A stretch of DNA of 64,000 bases from an uncultured Alphaproteobacteria bacterium (GTDB lineage Bacteria; Pseudomonadota; Alphaproteobacteria; Micavibrionales; CSBR16-224): contig CATLPD010000002.1 in assembly GCA_950054485.1 (NCBI GenBank), positions 124,001-188,000 of the forward strand. The letters run 5' to 3'. Position 1 is the first letter of the stretch; the number at the start of each line of letters is the position of its first letter. Shown here in pieces: positions 32,254-42,305 of the stretch. The notes below the pieces were generated by a model, which did no database searches, was not told the origin of the DNA, and saw nothing but the letters and a program-made list of their open reading frames with translations. Position numbers and translations under genes: made by a program.

Positions 32254-33180
32254 TCAGGATTTATTTTTCTTTTTTGCGGCGCGCTTTTCGTTGGCAATTT
32301 TTTCGTATTCGCGTGTGCCTTTATTGATGAATACATCTTCGGGAACGGTTTCACCTTCTTTGATCATCGGTTGCTGTTTAAGCTCTTCATATATCGGTGT
32401 AAAATCAGGCTCTGCTGTTTCCTTGAATAGCTGATCGAAGCTATCGATTACGAAATACTGGGCCTGAAAATCGTCGATTTTCACCTGCGTGCGCATCATG
32501 CGTTCTTTATCAAAACGAATGCGGTGCGGCGACGGATTTTCAAGGGCGAATACAGCCTCGGTCGGGGATGACATGATGCCGGCGCCATAGATCTTTAATC
32601 CGTCTTTTTCTTCGATCAGGCCGAATTCTACTGTATACCAATATAGGCGGCCCAGAAACTTGTCTGCATTCATTCCGCGGGCTTTGATGCTGCCCTGACC
32701 GAACAATTGGATATAATCGGCAAAGACAGGGTCTGCTAATAAAGGTACGTGACCAAACAGATCATGGAAGATGTCTGGTTCCTCGATGTAGTCCATATGT
32801 TTAGGTTTGCGCAGGAACGTGCCGGCCGGAAATTTACGGTTGGCGAGCAATTCAGTGAATGGATAAACGGGTATAACGCCGGGTACACCGACAACTTCCC
32901 ATCCTGTTTTTTTCATCAGGATTTCGTTGACTTCCTCCAGCTTGGGAATGCGGTCACGCGTAATGCCAAGTGTTGAAAGGGAATCCATAAATTGTGTAAT
33001 GGCGCGACCTTTCAGAATTTCCTCCTGACGGTCAAACAGATGTGCCCAAAGTTTATGTTCTTCGTCGGTATAGTTTTCCCAGTCTTGTGGAATGGTAAAA
33101 TATTCCAGATCGCCCGGTGTCCAACCTTCAAGGTCTGTGTAATGCCCAGGGTATTCGCGATCATTGTTCGTTTTTTTCAT
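32254..33180 (-). CDS. phhA: Phenylalanine 4-monooxygenase
   Basis: 308 residues. Non-heme iron, pterin-dependent hydroxylase converting phenylalanine to tyrosine. The iron ligands are the two His of IFHDLFGHVPLLADP and the Glu of YTVEFGLIEE; SSPTEAVFAL follows. No pterin dehydratase (PhhB) gene is adjacent. It is the fourth gene of hppD-fahA-maiA-phhA, so phenylalanine feeds the homogentisate pathway encoded by its neighbours. Confidence 0.96.
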   Translation of the reverse strand: MKKTNNDREYPGHYTDLEGWTPGDLEYFTIPQDWENYTDEEHKLWAHLFDRQEEILKGRAITQFMDSLSTLGITRDRIPKLEEVNEILMKKTGWEVVGVPGVIPVYPFTELLANRKFPAGTFLRKPKHMDYIEEPDIFHDLFGHVPLLADPVFADYIQLFGQGSIKARGMNADKFLGRLYWYTVEFGLIEEKDGLKIYGAGIMSSPTEAVFALENPSPHRIRFDKERMMRTQVKIDDFQAQYFVIDSFDQLFKETAEPDFTPIYEELKQQPMIKEGETVPEDVFINKGTREYEKIANEKRAAKKKNKS

Positions 33181-33192
33181 GGTTTATACCTG

Positions 33193-33855
33193 CTATTCTT
33201 TTTGTGCATCCGGCTGGTTTTCAGGACTAGCCTGTTCAAAGACATCCAGCGTCAGACAGTTCTCGTTGATCTTGCTCAAAATTGGATATCGCGCCATATC
33301 AACGTCAAAGCGTTCGGCATTATAGATTTGCGGAATCAACGTACATTCAGCATAACTGATACCGAAATCACTGCAAAAGCCGTTATCGCTATAGAATTTA
33401 GATTGTCCGATCATTTCTTCCAGAGCCCCAAATCCATTATTTATCCATCTATGATACCATTTTTTCTTTGATTCATCATTAACCTTCAAATCTTTTTTCA
33501 GGCTTTGCAAAACGCGCAGATTATTTAAAGGATGTATATCGCAAGCGATGACATTCATAATTTGGCGCAGATAGGCGCGGTTTTCAACATATTGCGGCAA
33601 CAGCGCAGGGGCGGGATATCGTTCTTCTAGATATTCAAGAATGGCATTTGATTGCGTTAAAACCATGCCATCATCAATTAATGTCGGTACACTTGCCATG
33701 GGGTTTATTACTCTATATTCCGGCTCGTGCTGACGACCGCCCATATCCAGCAAATGAACAGGTATGATCTCGTATTTTATTTTCTTAACATTCAGGGCGA
33801 TCCTGACCTTGTATGATGTCGAAGACCGCCAATAGCTATATAACTGTAATGTCAT
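33193..33855 (-). CDS. maiA: Maleylacetoacetate isomerase
   Basis: 220 residues, zeta-class glutathione S-transferase. The N-terminal thioredoxin fold has the catalytic SYWRSSTSYKVRIALN motif. NPMASVPTLIDDGMVLTQS holds the cis-Pro and glutathione-binding Ser, and the helical domain contains DIHPLNNLRVLQ. It isomerises maleylacetoacetate to fumarylacetoacetate. It overlaps fahA by four bases and precedes phhA by 12. Confidence 0.96.
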   Translation of the reverse strand: MTLQLYSYWRSSTSYKVRIALNVKKIKYEIIPVHLLDMGGRQHEPEYRVINPMASVPTLIDDGMVLTQSNAILEYLEERYPAPALLPQYVENRAYLRQIMNVIACDIHPLNNLRVLQSLKKDLKVNDESKKKWYHRWINNGFGALEEMIGQSKFYSDNGFCSDFGISYAECTLIPQIYNAERFDVDMARYPILSKINENCLTLDVFEQASPENQPDAQKE

Positions 33856-34832
33856 GGTTTATATTCAACGACCCTTTGATCAATAGCGCCAAAAATCGAT
33901 TGGCCGGTTTCATCATACATTTCTATTTTGATCGTGTCACCAAATTGCATAAAGGGTGTTTTGGCCTCGCCACTTTCGATGGTTTCCAGCATGCGCGCTT
34001 CTGCCAGACAAGCCGAACCGTTTGATCGATCGATGTTCGAAATCGTACCAGATCCGATAATCGTGCCTGCACACAGGGGGCGCGTTTTGGCGGCATGTGC
34101 AATCAAGCGTGGAAAATCAAAAACCATGTCAGCCCCTGCATCCGGCGTGCCGAAGATATCTCCGTTGTAGGTTACCTTAATAGGCAAGTGAACAATTCCG
34201 CCATCCCATGCGTCGCCAAGCTCATCCGGCGTAACGGCGACCGGTGAAAAGGCACTGGACGGTTTTGACTGAAAAAAACCAAACCCTTTTCCAAGCTCGC
34301 CCGGAATAAGTTTTCGCAAAGAAACATCGTTTACCAGCATGACCATTTGGATATGATCGCCGGCATTGGCAACATCAACGCCCATCGGGACATCATCTGT
34401 CACAACGGCAATCTCGCCTTCAAAGTCAATGCCCCAATCAGTTGAGGCCATTTCGATATCATCGCGAGGGCCGATAAAACTGTCAGAGCCGCCCTGATAC
34501 ATCAAGGGGTCTTCCCAAAAGCTTTTCGGCATTTCAGCGCCGCGCGCTTTGCGGACCAGTTCCACATGATTAACATAAGCGCTGCCGTCAGCCCATTGAT
34601 AGGCGCGGGGCAGGGGGCTTTCCATTTGTTCTTCATCAAAGTCAAAGCTTTCAACCGTGCCGTTTTCAAGTGCGTCCGCCGCATCCTCAAGCTTGGGCTT
34701 TATATCACTCCAGTTATCCAACGCATATTGCATTGTTGGTGCGATGTGCATAACCTCGACCGCACGTGTTAGATCGCGGCTGACCAATACAAGCTTGCCG
34801 TCTCGTCCGTGTTTTAGTGATCCTAGTTTCAT
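33852..34832 (-). CDS. fahA: Fumarylacetoacetase (bacterial short form)
   Basis: 326 residues of the fumarylacetoacetate hydrolase superfamily, shorter than the eukaryotic enzyme. Metal-binding acidic residues are visible in WGIDFEGEIAVVTDDVP and in the FSPVAVTPDELGDAW region; GTIIGSGTISN is the C-terminal family motif. It cleaves fumarylacetoacetate to fumarate and acetoacetate, the last step of tyrosine breakdown. Four-base overlaps on both sides indicate tight operon coupling. Confidence 0.95.
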   Translation of the reverse strand: MKLGSLKHGRDGKLVLVSRDLTRAVEVMHIAPTMQYALDNWSDIKPKLEDAADALENGTVESFDFDEEQMESPLPRAYQWADGSAYVNHVELVRKARGAEMPKSFWEDPLMYQGGSDSFIGPRDDIEMASTDWGIDFEGEIAVVTDDVPMGVDVANAGDHIQMVMLVNDVSLRKLIPGELGKGFGFFQSKPSSAFSPVAVTPDELGDAWDGGIVHLPIKVTYNGDIFGTPDAGADMVFDFPRLIAHAAKTRPLCAGTIIGSGTISNIDRSNGSACLAEARMLETIESGEAKTPFMQFGDTIKIEMYDETGQSIFGAIDQRVVEYKP

Positions 34833-35887
34833 TTTAATACTCCTCGCCTAATCTGATCTTCTTCAAGGCTTTCAAATAATGCCTGAAAATTCCCTTCACC
34901 AAAGCCTTCATTACCTTTGCGTTGAATGATTTCAAAGAAAATAGGGCCGATGACTTCCTGCGTGAAGATTTGCAGCAATATGCCTTGTCCTTCGGTTGGG
35001 GCACCATCAATCAGAATGTGACGTTTATGCAATTCGGTCACATCTTCGCCATGACCGGGCAAACGTTCGTCAATTTTCTCGAAATAAGTGTCGGGTGTTG
35101 ACTGGAACTTGACCTTGTTATTCTTTAATCCATCAACTGTATCAAAGATATTATCCGTACCCAACGCGATATGCTGAATACCTTCGCCTTTATACTTAGA
35201 CAAATATTCTTCGATCTGCGATTTATCATCCTGACTTTCGTTAATCGGAATACGAATTTTTCCGCAAGGTGACGTCATGGCACGGCTGATCAAACCGGTC
35301 AACTTGCCTTCAATATCAAAATAGCGAATTTCACGAAAGTTGAATAAGTCTTCGTAGAATTTGGCCCATTTATTCATGTTACCGCGAAAGACGTTATGCG
35401 TAAGGTGATCAATATATGTCAGTCCGCAGCCTGATACTTTTTCGTGACCATCCGTATCAAAATCAAAATCTGTGTCGTATATCGTTTCATCTTTGTATTT
35501 ATCGACAAGGTATAATCGTGATCCGCCGATACCTTCTAGAACCGGGATTTTTAGCTCGCCGGGTCCGACAGGATTATCGGGGCTGTTGACACCGAATTCA
35601 TTGGCGCGGGCCAATGCTTTTTCAGCGTCTTTCACACGAAAGGCCATGGCGCAAACACATGGGCCGTGTTCTGCCGCGAACTGCTGGGCGAATGAGTTTG
35701 GTTCTGCATTGATAATAAAATTAATATCGCCTTGGCGGTGCAAGGTTACATTTTTGCTTTTGTGCTGTGCAATTTGTTTGAACCCCATACTGTCGAAAAG
35801 CTTGCGAAGCTGTTCCGGTTCGGGATGTGCATATTCTACAAACTCAAAGCCGTCTGTTCCCATTGGATTTTCAAAAAGGTCGCTCAT
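34829..35887 (-). CDS. hppD: 4-hydroxyphenylpyruvate dioxygenase
   Basis: 352 residues; a two-domain vicinal-oxygen-chelate enzyme. Iron ligands fit YIDHLTHNVFRGNM (His), GIQHIALGTDNIF (His) and GPIFFEIIQRKGNEGFGEGN (Glu), and the C-terminal gating helix FQALFESLEEDQIRRGVL is intact. It converts 4-hydroxyphenylpyruvate to homogentisate. First gene of the operon; its promoter should lie in 35888-35951. The next enzyme, hmgA, is 8 kb away. Confidence 0.96.
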   Translation of the reverse strand: MSDLFENPMGTDGFEFVEYAHPEPEQLRKLFDSMGFKQIAQHKSKNVTLHRQGDINFIINAEPNSFAQQFAAEHGPCVCAMAFRVKDAEKALARANEFGVNSPDNPVGPGELKIPVLEGIGGSRLYLVDKYKDETIYDTDFDFDTDGHEKVSGCGLTYIDHLTHNVFRGNMNKWAKFYEDLFNFREIRYFDIEGKLTGLISRAMTSPCGKIRIPINESQDDKSQIEEYLSKYKGEGIQHIALGTDNIFDTVDGLKNNKVKFQSTPDTYFEKIDERLPGHGEDVTELHKRHILIDGAPTEGQGILLQIFTQEVIGPIFFEIIQRKGNEGFGEGNFQALFESLEEDQIRRGVLK

Positions 35888-36363: not shown

Positions 36364-36446
36364 TACTGTTATGGTTAATATTTACTAAAAAAGCTTGGTG
36401 TTCCGTGGATTAATTGATAATTTCTATTCATGTAGCGGAGCATAAA

Positions 36447-37289
36447 ATGTTTAAAAAAAATAATATCAAAGTAAGTTTTGAATTCTTTCCACCAAAAAAT
36501 GAAAATTTGGAGGCGGGCTTGTGGAATTGCGTACAATCATTGAAAGACCTGAATCCCGACTTTGTTTCTGTGACTTACGGTGCGGGGGGATCCACCAGAA
36601 AACGTACACATTCGATCGTAAGTAAATTGTATAAAGACCATAAGTTGCCCACGGCAGCACATCTGACCTGTATCGGTGCATCCGAAAAAGATATCAGCGA
36701 GATTGCCGAAACATATTGGCAAAATGGTATAAAACATATTGTGGCCTTGCGGGGTGATTTACCTGATGGTCATGACCATAAAAGCGACCAATACGCCTAT
36801 GCTGCTGATTTGGTGACAGCCTTGAAAAATATAGCTGATTTTGAAATATCTGTTGCGGGATACCCTGAAAAACACCCGGAGTGCCAGAGTATTGAACAGG
36901 ATATAGAGAATTTAAAAAGAAAAGTTGATTGCGGGGCCGATCGTATCATTACGCAATTTTTCATGAATCCTGAAGATTTTTTGCTTTGGCGGGACAGAGT
37001 CGTATCGGCCGGTATTGATGTGCCGATCGTGCCGGGAATATTGCCATTAAACCATTATGGCCGCGCTGTCAGCTTTGCAAAAAGGTGTGGAACAAAAATT
37101 CCGTTATGGCTGAAGGATTTATATCAAGGGCTTGATTCAACCCCGACCATGCGTGACCGTGTATCTGTCTCGGTTGCTTATGAACAGTGCCGCATTCTGC
37201 AGGAAAACGGGGTTGATCAATTTCACTTCTACACATTAAACCGTCCCGAGCTTGTTAAGACAGTTTGCCATTTGTTGGGGATAAGGTAG
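36447..37289 (+). CDS. metF: 5,10-methylenetetrahydrofolate reductase MetF
   Basis: 280 residues from the ATG at 36447, preceded by GGAG with six bases of spacing. FAD-dependent TIM barrel that makes 5-methyl-THF for methionine synthesis. KVSFEFFPPKNENLE, VSVTYGAGGSTRKRTHSI, HIVALRGDLPD and DRIITQFFMNPEDFLLWRD are all family signatures. The stop codon is directly followed by the ATG of a MetE-like protein, so the two are one translational unit. Confidence 0.96.
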   Translation: MFKKNNIKVSFEFFPPKNENLEAGLWNCVQSLKDLNPDFVSVTYGAGGSTRKRTHSIVSKLYKDHKLPTAAHLTCIGASEKDISEIAETYWQNGIKHIVALRGDLPDGHDHKSDQYAYAADLVTALKNIADFEISVAGYPEKHPECQSIEQDIENLKRKVDCGADRIITQFFMNPEDFLLWRDRVVSAGIDVPIVPGILPLNHYGRAVSFAKRCGTKIPLWLKDLYQGLDSTPTMRDRVSVSVAYEQCRILQENGVDQFHFYTLNRPELVKTVCHLLGIR

Positions 37290-38354
37290 ATGGTACAAAC
37301 GACGACCATGGGAATTTATGATCCCGAGATGTTGGCAGAGACTGCAAAAGTTTGTGAAAGTGAAAAAATATCGGAAGAGGTCATTTCAAAGCAAGTTGCT
37401 CAATTACAACGTGACTGGTGCCTCAAGCAGGCGGCGGCAGGTATTAGCCTGTTTCCTGTAAATGATATTTTTTTAACAGATCCGGTATTCGAGATGGCGA
37501 GAGCATTGGGGCTGCATAATTTGTCAAGCTGGGACTATTTTTCTTTAGACATCAAAAAGGCAAAATGGTTCAGCGGGGATCATTTATTTTATGTTCCCGA
37601 AATTGGCGGAGGAATGGATATATCTTTTGATTCCAGTGCTTTATCGCCAATTCCTGAAAGCTTAATTGATGGCAGTTTCGAGGTTGTAGTTTCTTTGATT
37701 GGGCCTCTAACGATGCTTGGCTGGTGTATAGATGAGGCCAGTGGTAACCCATTTATAGATAACTGGCAAAAATTCTTGCCTCGCTATCTTGAGCTGCTAC
37801 TAGCGTATGAAAGCCGGGGCGCGGATTGGATACAATTCCATGAACCGATTTTGGATCGCGCCCTACCTGCGGATATCATTGATTTGGGGCGGGTTATATA
37901 TGACGCGGTAAGTGAGAAAACAGAAATGAAAAGCCTTTTGGTTTTTAATTCCGGACATAGCGCAGATAATATTAAAAAAATTATGAAGTTTCCCGTTCAC
38001 GCTGTTCATGTGGATATGATTCACAATGCTGATAATTTCTCGGTTTTTCTGGATAATGATTTTGGCAAAATCTTTTCTTTAGGGGTCGTCAGTGCCGATT
38101 TTTCCAACCTTACCAATTTGAGTCAGCAATTAAAATATGTTGAAAGGTCTGTTAACCAGATTGGATTGAGGCGCACGATGGTTTCAATGAACCGTCCGTT
38201 TTATCGTGCTCCTGTGGACGGCATTAACGCAGAAACGCTTGATGAAAAATTGAACTATCTGGCCGTTATATCTAAAGCTATGAAAAGGGGCAGGGCGAGC
38301 GTGCAATCTGAAATAGAAGCGAACAGTAAAAAACTGACTGACAAACAGGCTTAA
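37290..38354 (+). CDS. Stand-alone homologue of the N-terminal half of MetE
   Basis: 354 residues. It aligns over its whole length with the N-terminal domain of cobalamin-independent methionine synthase MetE: RDWCLKQAAAGISLFPVNDI, KAKWFSGDHLFYVPE, VSLIGPLTMLGW, YESRGADWIQFHEPIL and HAVHVDMIH. In MetE this half is a duplicated barrel that contacts folate but carries no zinc. The zinc ligands of the C-terminal catalytic half (His-x-Cys, Glu, Cys) are absent here and no C-terminal half follows. Start immediately after the metF stop. A role with metF in methyl transfer is inferred from the neighbourhood alone; it may need a separate catalytic partner. Confidence 0.8.
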   Translation: MVQTTTMGIYDPEMLAETAKVCESEKISEEVISKQVAQLQRDWCLKQAAAGISLFPVNDIFLTDPVFEMARALGLHNLSSWDYFSLDIKKAKWFSGDHLFYVPEIGGGMDISFDSSALSPIPESLIDGSFEVVVSLIGPLTMLGWCIDEASGNPFIDNWQKFLPRYLELLLAYESRGADWIQFHEPILDRALPADIIDLGRVIYDAVSEKTEMKSLLVFNSGHSADNIKKIMKFPVHAVHVDMIHNADNFSVFLDNDFGKIFSLGVVSADFSNLTNLSQQLKYVERSVNQIGLRRTMVSMNRPFYRAPVDGINAETLDEKLNYLAVISKAMKRGRASVQSEIEANSKKLTDKQA

Positions 38355-38372
38355 ATATTGTTTAATATCAAT

Positions 38373-39014
38373 ATGTCATGTGAAAAAAAACACATTCAAT
38401 GCGGTAAGCTGTCGCGGGAGTTTCAAAAAGCAGTCGAGGAATATTTGCTGGTTGAGACTGAATTGGCGCCCGCTGATATAGCCGTTGTGTTTGGCAGCAA
38501 TGGCCGCAAATCTTTGGCTGAAAAGGCGTTCGAACTTTATCAAAAGGGTCTTGTTAAGAAAATTGTCGTCACCGGCGGATACAAGGGAAGCTTTAAGAAA
38601 ACCGAGGCCGAAGATATTCAAGCAAGGCTTTTAAATCTGGGTGTCCGTTCAAATGATATTCTGATAGAAAATAAATCTTTAAACACCGGACAGAATGTTG
38701 TACTGACCCGCCAGCTTATTGAAAAAGAAATAGGATTGGAAAAGGTCGGGTCCATTATAGCTGTTGGCAATGTGACAGCATCAAGGCGTTTTTTAATGAC
38801 TTTGAAAAAACACTGGCCCGAAGCTTTTGTCATGATCGCTCCGGCAAATCCATACAATGTACCTAAAAATAAGTGGTATAAGGTTGATAAGTTCAAATGT
38901 GACGTTATGAACCAGTATGTCAAAATCCCGCTTTACTTTGAAAAGGGATTTATCAAAGAGGTGGATATCTCAGATATTAACCGCAAAGCCATCCAGAAAA
39001 GAAAATTCGGTTGA
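38373..39014 (+). CDS. YdcF/SanA-family (DUF218) protein
   Basis: 213 residues from the ATG at 38373; a TTG at 38358 is an alternative, and neither has a good ribosome binding site. DIAVVFGSNGRKSLAEKAFE, KKIVVTGGYKG and ENKSLNTGQNVVLTRQLIE match the DUF218 (ElyC/SanA/YdcF) family, Rossmann-like proteins linked to envelope maintenance or nucleotide binding. No membrane anchor is visible, which sets it apart from SanA and ElyC. It follows the metF unit closely. Confidence 0.75.
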   Translation: MSCEKKHIQCGKLSREFQKAVEEYLLVETELAPADIAVVFGSNGRKSLAEKAFELYQKGLVKKIVVTGGYKGSFKKTEAEDIQARLLNLGVRSNDILIENKSLNTGQNVVLTRQLIEKEIGLEKVGSIIAVGNVTASRRFLMTLKKHWPEAFVMIAPANPYNVPKNKWYKVDKFKCDVMNQYVKIPLYFEKGFIKEVDISDINRKAIQKRKFG

Positions 39015-41213: not shown

Positions 41214-42305
41214 ATGAAAACTTTAAACACCCTTGCTATGGCGACGGCATTTATCGCGCTGACGGGCGGTGCTTTTGCACAGACAATCAATTCAAGTGAT
41301 ATTCAATGGAATTCACCAAGCGCTTATACAACCACATCAGCTAGTGTAAATTCTCAATCACAGCTGCGCCTGAACTCGACTCAGGTACGCGCTTTGCAGC
41401 AAGCTTTGAGATCTGAAGGTTATAACATCGCTGTTGATGGTGCCTATGGTCCCAACACGGCCAGTGCCTTGCGCTCGTTCCAGTCACAAGAAAAACTGGC
41501 GGTGACAGGACAGGCAAATACGGAGACATTGGCAAAGCTTAATTTGAACAATGACGCATTTTTGAATTCTAATATTGCAACAAACACAAATACTAGCGCG
41601 CAATCATCATTAAAGCTTAGTCGTTCAGAAGTGATGGATATGCAGCGTGCCCTGCGTTCTGAAGGTTATAACATCGGTGTAGATGGTGTCTACGGACCCA
41701 ATACAGCAAGCGCATTACGTTCTTTTCAATCGCGTAATAGCCTTGCGGTTACTGGGCAAGCTAACCGCGAGACGCTTGCAAGTTTAAACCTGATTTCTAA
41801 TTCAGGTACAATGGCAAACACTTCAGCTAATTCGTCACTTAAGGCGCAAACGGCCCTCCAACTGGACACGGGCGACATACGCAGTATGCAAACTGCTTTG
41901 CGTGCACAAGGTTATAACAGTGTCGCTGTAAATGGTATTATGGATCAAAACACTGTAGCGGCGTTGCGTTCTTATCAGGCTGATAAGAACCTGAGCGTTA
42001 CAGGCAAAGCTAACTTTGAAACATTGGCAAATCTTGATCTGTTGTCACGCACAAATTCGGGCGCGTCAGTAAATGCAAATGCGACTTTGATGCCGTCTTT
42101 GGTGCAGCTTGATAATGGTAACATTCGCATGTTACAGCAGGCCTTACGTTCAGAAGGCTATAACATCGGTGTAGATGGTATTGTCGGCCAGAACACTGTT
42201 AATGCGCTTAGAACATTTCAGGCTAGCAATGACCTGCAAGCGACAGGCGAACTTGATCAGGAGACACTCGTGATGCTGAATCTTTTAAACAGGTTTGCAC
42301 GCTAA
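41214..42305 (+). CDS. Exported protein with four peptidoglycan-binding repeats
   Basis: 363 residues: a signal peptide (MKTLNTLAMATAFIALTGGA, cleavage near FAQ) and four PG_binding_1 domains at residues ~52-111, ~139-195, ~217-275 and ~300-360, each with ALRSEGYNI-V-G----NT--ALR-FQ and VTGQAN-ETL-type motifs. There is no catalytic domain, so it probably binds the cell wall as a structural or adaptor protein. AAGGAG precedes the ATG. A terminator follows. Repeats 1, 2 and 4 are nearly identical in DNA over about 20-30 bases, suggesting recent duplication. Confidence 0.9.
   Translation: MKTLNTLAMATAFIALTGGAFAQTINSSDIQWNSPSAYTTTSASVNSQSQLRLNSTQVRALQQALRSEGYNIAVDGAYGPNTASALRSFQSQEKLAVTGQANTETLAKLNLNNDAFLNSNIATNTNTSAQSSLKLSRSEVMDMQRALRSEGYNIGVDGVYGPNTASALRSFQSRNSLAVTGQANRETLASLNLISNSGTMANTSANSSLKAQTALQLDTGDIRSMQTALRAQGYNSVAVNGIMDQNTVAALRSYQADKNLSVTGKANFETLANLDLLSRTNSGASVNANATLMPSLVQLDNGNIRMLQQALRSEGYNIGVDGIVGQNTVNALRTFQASNDLQATGELDQETLVMLNLLNRFAR
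41367..42296 (+). repeat. Four tandem coding repeats (peptidoglycan-binding domains)
   Basis: Four units of ~60 codons separated by Ser/Asn/Thr-rich linkers. The core TCTGAAGGTTATAACATCG is identical at 41412 and 41658 and differs by two bases at 42150; the third unit (near 41905) has diverged more. Confidence 0.75.

Follow-up and report, generated by a model that had tools for sequence, protein, structure and literature searches.

The N-terminal barrel of the methionine synthase MetE is seen as a duplicate that has been disabled and that serves to build the folate site together with the C-terminal barrel. A gene that codes for this half only, placed behind metF in an alphaproteobacterial genome, raises the question of what such a protein is, how it came to stand there and whether it is kept for some use.

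The orphan gene and its product

The gene lies at 37290..38354 (forward strand) of the window, by which we mean the whole 64,000-nucleotide stretch of DNA that was analysed; it starts with ATG and encodes 354 aa. It is preceded by metF (5,10-methylenetetrahydrofolate reductase; 36447..37289, forward strand; PF02219, E = 2.8e-93), the reading frame of which can be extended upstream to a TTG at 36414, and which a genome-wide search recovered as the single MetF copy. The earlier reading of the orphan as translated directly after metF held true: the metF stop codon (TAG) occupies 37287-37289 and the orphan ATG begins at the next base. Judging from this junction (TTGGGGATAAGGTAGATG, 37275..37292, forward strand, the stop codon abutting the ATG), with the purine-rich GGGGATAAGG upstream of the ATG, the two genes are likely to be translationally coupled; the start may instead be M7 (37308), since clear homology is seen only from G8 onward. 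The orphan coding frame outscores the other five, its codon use is native and similar to that of metF, and its GC3 (0.41) is close to that of metF (0.42); together with the homology, these features place the gene far beyond chance.

The protein was confirmed to be a stand-alone MetE N barrel. Profile searches placed it in PF08267 alone (E = 9.4e-27, 94.8 bits vs. a curated cut-off of 27, profile positions 25-307 of 313) and in no family of another function, PF01717 was not detected in it by the Pfam search, and the NCBIfam matches were full-length MetE models aligned over their N half only. MetE N barrels were also its best PDB sequence matches, and all four motifs quoted in the preliminary description were found in the frame. 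The ‘end to end’ match claimed there proved slightly generous, as the profile is unmatched over its first 24 positions (GFPRIGxxRELK) and some 20 residues near the MARGN loop are missing. By alignment, residues 314-354 match the final helices of the two-barrel MetE and the beginning of its inter-barrel linker (tail EKLNYLAVISKAMKRGRASVQSEIEANSKK).

Structure prediction and superposition agreed with this assignment. The AlphaFold2 model built from seven sequences (pLDDT 72, pTM 0.77), which superseded a weaker first one built from four (pTM 0.60), fitted the MetE N barrel and linker start with Z = 34.2 (rmsd 3.0, 346 residues), as compared to Z = 24-26 for single-barrel methionine synthase-like structures and about 20 for UROD. 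By its predicted fold, the orphan belongs to the MetE/UROD barrel superfamily. The likeness to MetE extends over its whole length (linker start included), to the GP, EP and HxD motifs and to its position behind metF, as in the metF-metE operons of the order; it differs from MetE in being devoid of the C barrel and of any zinc or homocysteine site, in its low identity, and in the loss of the residues for the folate glutamate tail and of the MARGN, GRNIW and SCSLLH motifs.

The divergence is considerable. While MetE N-halves are 37-99% identical among themselves, the orphan shares at most 28% identity with them, and its tree branch (8.6 changes per site, vs. a median end branch of 0.23) has a position without support. 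It retains 39% of the 66 columns that are at least 95% conserved in MetE N-halves (each of the real N-halves in the set retains at least 88%), and the retained fraction increases with column conservation, from 14% to 39%. Kept are K92-W93, V102-P103-E104, G138-P139, Y166, W180, Q182, E185-P186, Y204, H240, D242, S263 and G265; lost are the GFPRIGxxRELK segment (including the folate-tail Arg and Lys), the MARGN loop, GRNIW, the TYF and SCSLLH positions (counterparts of the C-barrel zinc ligands) and, by motif alignment, the inter-barrel residues. The positions equivalent to the zinc ligands (His/Cys/Glu/Cys in MetE) hold V/N, D242 and R, and a MetE-type zinc site is absent, as the preliminary description had it.

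The roles of the folate-contacting residues were taken from the Thermotoga maritima MetE (PMC539065) and mapped onto the orphan by motif alignment in this analysis. In that enzyme Arg15 and Lys18 of the N barrel hold the folate glutamate tail, while the folate is held mainly by the C barrel, with no intimate binding by the N barrel (PMC539065). Both equivalents are Ala in the orphan, and K92, the equivalent of the pterin-contacting Lys104, is the sole survivor of the folate-contact residues (within a conserved KWF motif). Folate binding by the orphan alone appears unlikely on these grounds, because most of the contacts belong to the C barrel, which is missing, and the residues for the tail have not been kept. 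A further peculiarity is the WIQFHEP motif (37827..37847, forward strand), in which His184 replaces the Asp of the QxDEP motif of MetE N-halves; Asp stands at this position in all MetE N-halves and orphans compared, and a scan of 84,980 species for the HEP pattern matched only unrelated actinobacterial core MetE proteins. WIQIHEP in place of DEP was observed in core MetE-like proteins of Pseudonocardia and another actinomycete MAG (L094, L095, L096), one Pseudonocardia contig carrying two similar copies.

Genome context and descent from a metF-metE locus

The genome (2.28 Mb in 12 contigs, 99.99% complete) gave no PF01717 (MetE catalytic domain) match anywhere in a profile search in which 10 of 14 control genomes did, and it carries one complete MetH (1226 aa, five domains), with homocysteine, pterin, B12-binding and activation domains. 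Thus, no catalytic partner exists for an N subunit and methionine can come from MetH; the suggestion that the orphan is the partner of a separately encoded core MetE is refuted, while the search for metH that accompanied it returned the enzyme just described. That the orphan is not itself a methionine synthase is well supported, given that it has neither a zinc/homocysteine site nor most of the folate contacts.

The locus retains the traces of a full-length metE. The syntenic anchor of the hppD-metF-metE arrangement is a gene at 34829..35887 (reverse strand), which, from sequence similarity and general knowledge, we take to be hppD (4-hydroxyphenylpyruvate dioxygenase), and which is 68-77% identical to the hppD adjoining metF in genomes of the sister family and of its own family. 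In the sister family (f6) all five genomes have hppD(-)/metF(+)-metE(+) with a full-length metE (metF 56-58% and hppD 68-69% identical to the window genes), and in two genomes of the own family (G004, G005) hppD(-)/metF(+) occurs without metE. The same hppD context of metF was found in L090, L091, L092, L166 and L169. The window metF is 55-61% identical to those of six family members, and the N-half gene was not found in any of the six other genomes of the family. Given this arrangement in relatives, the window gene sits in the metE position, and the linker remnant in its tail indicates descent from a two-barrel MetE that lost its C barrel. Together, position and linker make the metE ancestry of the orphan well supported. 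It would be less parsimonious to suppose that a divergent N-half gene was inserted horizontally beside metF, and the linker remnant of a fused MetE led us to reject an archaeal split subunit as the ancestor.

At the level of the order, homologues lie mostly within full-length MetE (about 750-830 aa), and metF is commonly found directly upstream of metE. The proposed survey of metF neighbours has shown a link that is real and that says little on function: it was inherited from a metF-metE operon and is weak evidence for a MetF-specific role. The pattern of MetH occurrence is compatible with a replacement of MetE by MetH in the family of the window, where its activation domain is present in five of seven genomes (the other two being incomplete); it was not seen in G133, an incomplete genome of the sister family that carries a full metE.

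The place expected for the lost C half is taken by a DUF218 (YdcF/SanA-like) gene (38373..39014, forward strand; PF02698, E = 1.7e-17), which starts 18 nt after the orphan stop (or 3 nt, with a TTG at 38358) and is possibly in the same operon. Co-acquisition of the two genes was considered; in the relatives examined, neither metE nor metF had a DUF218 gene as neighbour. Upstream of metF (32254-35887) the window holds, by sequence similarity, genes of phenylalanine/tyrosine degradation (phenylalanine hydroxylase, maleylacetoacetate isomerase-like, fumarylacetoacetase and hppD), with homologues in the same order in own-family L166 and L169. At 41214-42305 there is a secreted-looking protein with about four peptidoglycan-binding-like repeats (LRSEGYNIGVDGxYGPNTxxALRxFQ).

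Relatives and parallel orphan N-halves

No ortholog of the orphan was recovered from the family, order and class samples or, by 8-mer and motif scans, from 84,980 species, and no close relative from viral contigs by an 8-mer scan. The matches in the order and class lay inside full-length MetE or in shorter frames (several at contig ends), none being a close relative, and plasmid tblastn gave only matches below 60% identity, which, among the matches listed, were annotated as metE or unannotated. Divergent MetE genes were observed in IMG/VR contigs classed as viral (L151, L153, L154), of 717 aa in L153 and running past the end of the stored stretch in the other two. On another viral-class contig (L099:2929-4245), a large in-frame deletion has left a 439-aa MetE whose N barrel runs straight into the middle of its C barrel. 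Full-length metE is likewise present on L097 and L098.

A screen of a phylum sample and of a Pseudomonadaceae-like family sample (the family name being inferred from gene content) brought to light further orphan MetE N-halves in Pseudomonadaceae-like genomes (L082-L085, L133-L146), of three types. Type 1 (369-406 aa) retains a large part of the GFPxxG/RELK segment; in L083 and L085 its neighbourhood includes a metR-like LysR gene. Of 12 genomes of one genus, 9 carry type 2 (354-370 aa), whose neighbours, where examined, are a GNAT gene and a TonB receptor; this type no longer has RELK, Lys104, GRNIW or SCSLLH, a state similar to that of the window protein, which however kept Lys104. Type 3 (238-281 aa) adjoins a metR-like gene and rlmM; in two genomes (L142, L143) it is followed downstream by MesX and by a core of 350 aa that is presumably MesD. 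In these two (L142:4882-9872, L143:4875-9864) the 238-aa N-half is located between a divergent metR-like LysR gene and rlmM, the locus also comprising MesX (PF08908), the 350-aa core methionine synthase and a flavin-reductase-like gene downstream; it may have a role with MesD/MesX.

Thirteen of the genomes with type 1 and 2 orphans were without PF01717, save for weak cross-matches of the orphan itself, and all 13 possess MetH. Pairwise dN/dS values of the pseudomonad-like orphans (0.15-0.44) reveal purifying selection. Like the window protein they are lone PF08267 barrels, and their diverged type has lost the same folate and inter-barrel residues; they differ in their neighbours (metR-like or other genes, not metF), in the Asp kept in the DEP motif where compared, and in origin. 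In the tree, the four that were included grouped as a single clade inside the gammaproteobacterial-type MetE and away from the window protein; two independent origins are likely from this topology. We found no description of lone MetE N-halves without a catalytic partner in the open-licence literature, the nearest being split MetE, and they are apparently undescribed so far.

Maintenance and possible use

We consider it rather probable that the orphan is what is left of metE and that it has been kept as a barrel without catalytic function, co-translated with MetF. The main competitor is a decaying, functionless N-half, open by chance because it is translated with metF. Such a relic would agree with the retention of the gene in only one of seven family members, with its very fast evolution and many lost conserved residues, and with the fact that a metE remnant fully accounts for its position. 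We nevertheless hold it to be unlikely. When neutral decay was simulated from the N-half of a sister-family metE (200 runs, substitutions only), the frame remained stop-free at 70% identity in just 1% of the runs and at 60% or below in none of the 200, and 5-11 stops are expected at the divergence of the orphan, which has 354 open codons; indels would make survival of the frame rarer still. Thus, selection very likely acted on the frame for much of its history, and the codon use in line with metF, the preferential retention of conserved columns and the purifying selection on the parallel orphans likewise speak against plain decay.

The remaining alternatives assign a defined activity to the barrel. 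The proposed methyl-folate-binding adaptor, which would take methyl-THF from MetF and pass it to MetH, draws on co-translation with metF, on the complete MetH of the genome and on the surviving K92 and KWF motif, and has come out weakened: the tail residues are replaced by Ala, most folate contacts belong to the missing barrel, the most diverged parallel orphans have neither Lys104 nor the tail residues, and the metF link was inherited and not acquired. We regard it as improbable. The same applies, with somewhat more force, to a new methyltransferase or other enzyme with an active site rebuilt in the barrel mouth (His184, His240, Asp242, Glu185); His184 in place of an otherwise invariant Asp, several His within conserved barrel motifs and the fold of the MetE/UROD superfamily would suit it, but the zinc ligand set is absent, there is no conserved family to reveal an active site, and the neighbourhood gives no pointer to a substrate. 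A split MetE of the archaeal kind, with a separate catalytic core, is barely credible. In being a PF08267-only protein under the limit of 400 aa, the orphan does resemble the subunit known to bind folate in split MetE (Pyrococcus PF1268/PF1269 type). Split MetE is however defined by the presence of both parts, the catalytic subunit being nearly always adjacent (Price et al. 2021, PMC7857596), whereas the window genome has no such subunit and the tail betrays a fused ancestor. The core methionine synthases (core-MetE, MesA-MesD) share a single barrel of the MetE superfamily with the orphan but represent the opposite half, i.e. the catalytic, zinc-bearing PF01717 half (PMC7005905, PMC7857596), of which it has neither the barrel nor the zinc site.

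Returning to the kept, non-catalytic barrel, we envisage an ancestral hppD / metF-metE locus in which MetH would first have come to serve methionine synthesis, after which the catalytic C barrel would have been lost and the N barrel would have persisted as a protein of its own, with its translation following directly on that of MetF. It would then have evolved fast, with its frame and fold preserved along with a few residues of the barrel (GP, E185-P186, H240-x-D242, K92). As the leftover barrel is intact, some use other than methionine synthesis is probable, most likely as a non-catalytic binding barrel: the face that formerly packed against the C barrel, remodelled, could dock on another protein of the pathway (co-translated MetF or one of the MetH barrels being the first candidates) or bind a small ligand. 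The docking step by itself is a guess, and a rather doubtful one.

The metF link of the orphan has an ordinary evolutionary explanation; what makes it interesting is that the N barrel has more than once outlived its catalytic half. It is conceivable, and we put it forward tentatively, that lone N barrels of MetE form a recurring functional class, freed repeatedly in MetH-using bacteria and kept under selection as binding or regulatory proteins of one-carbon metabolism, here locked to MetF. A lone, intact N barrel under purifying selection in the pseudomonad-like family, with no catalytic half, suggests that the barrel can act by itself. Such genes may be annotated as metE, wrongly predicting B12-independent methionine synthesis in organisms that may depend on MetH.
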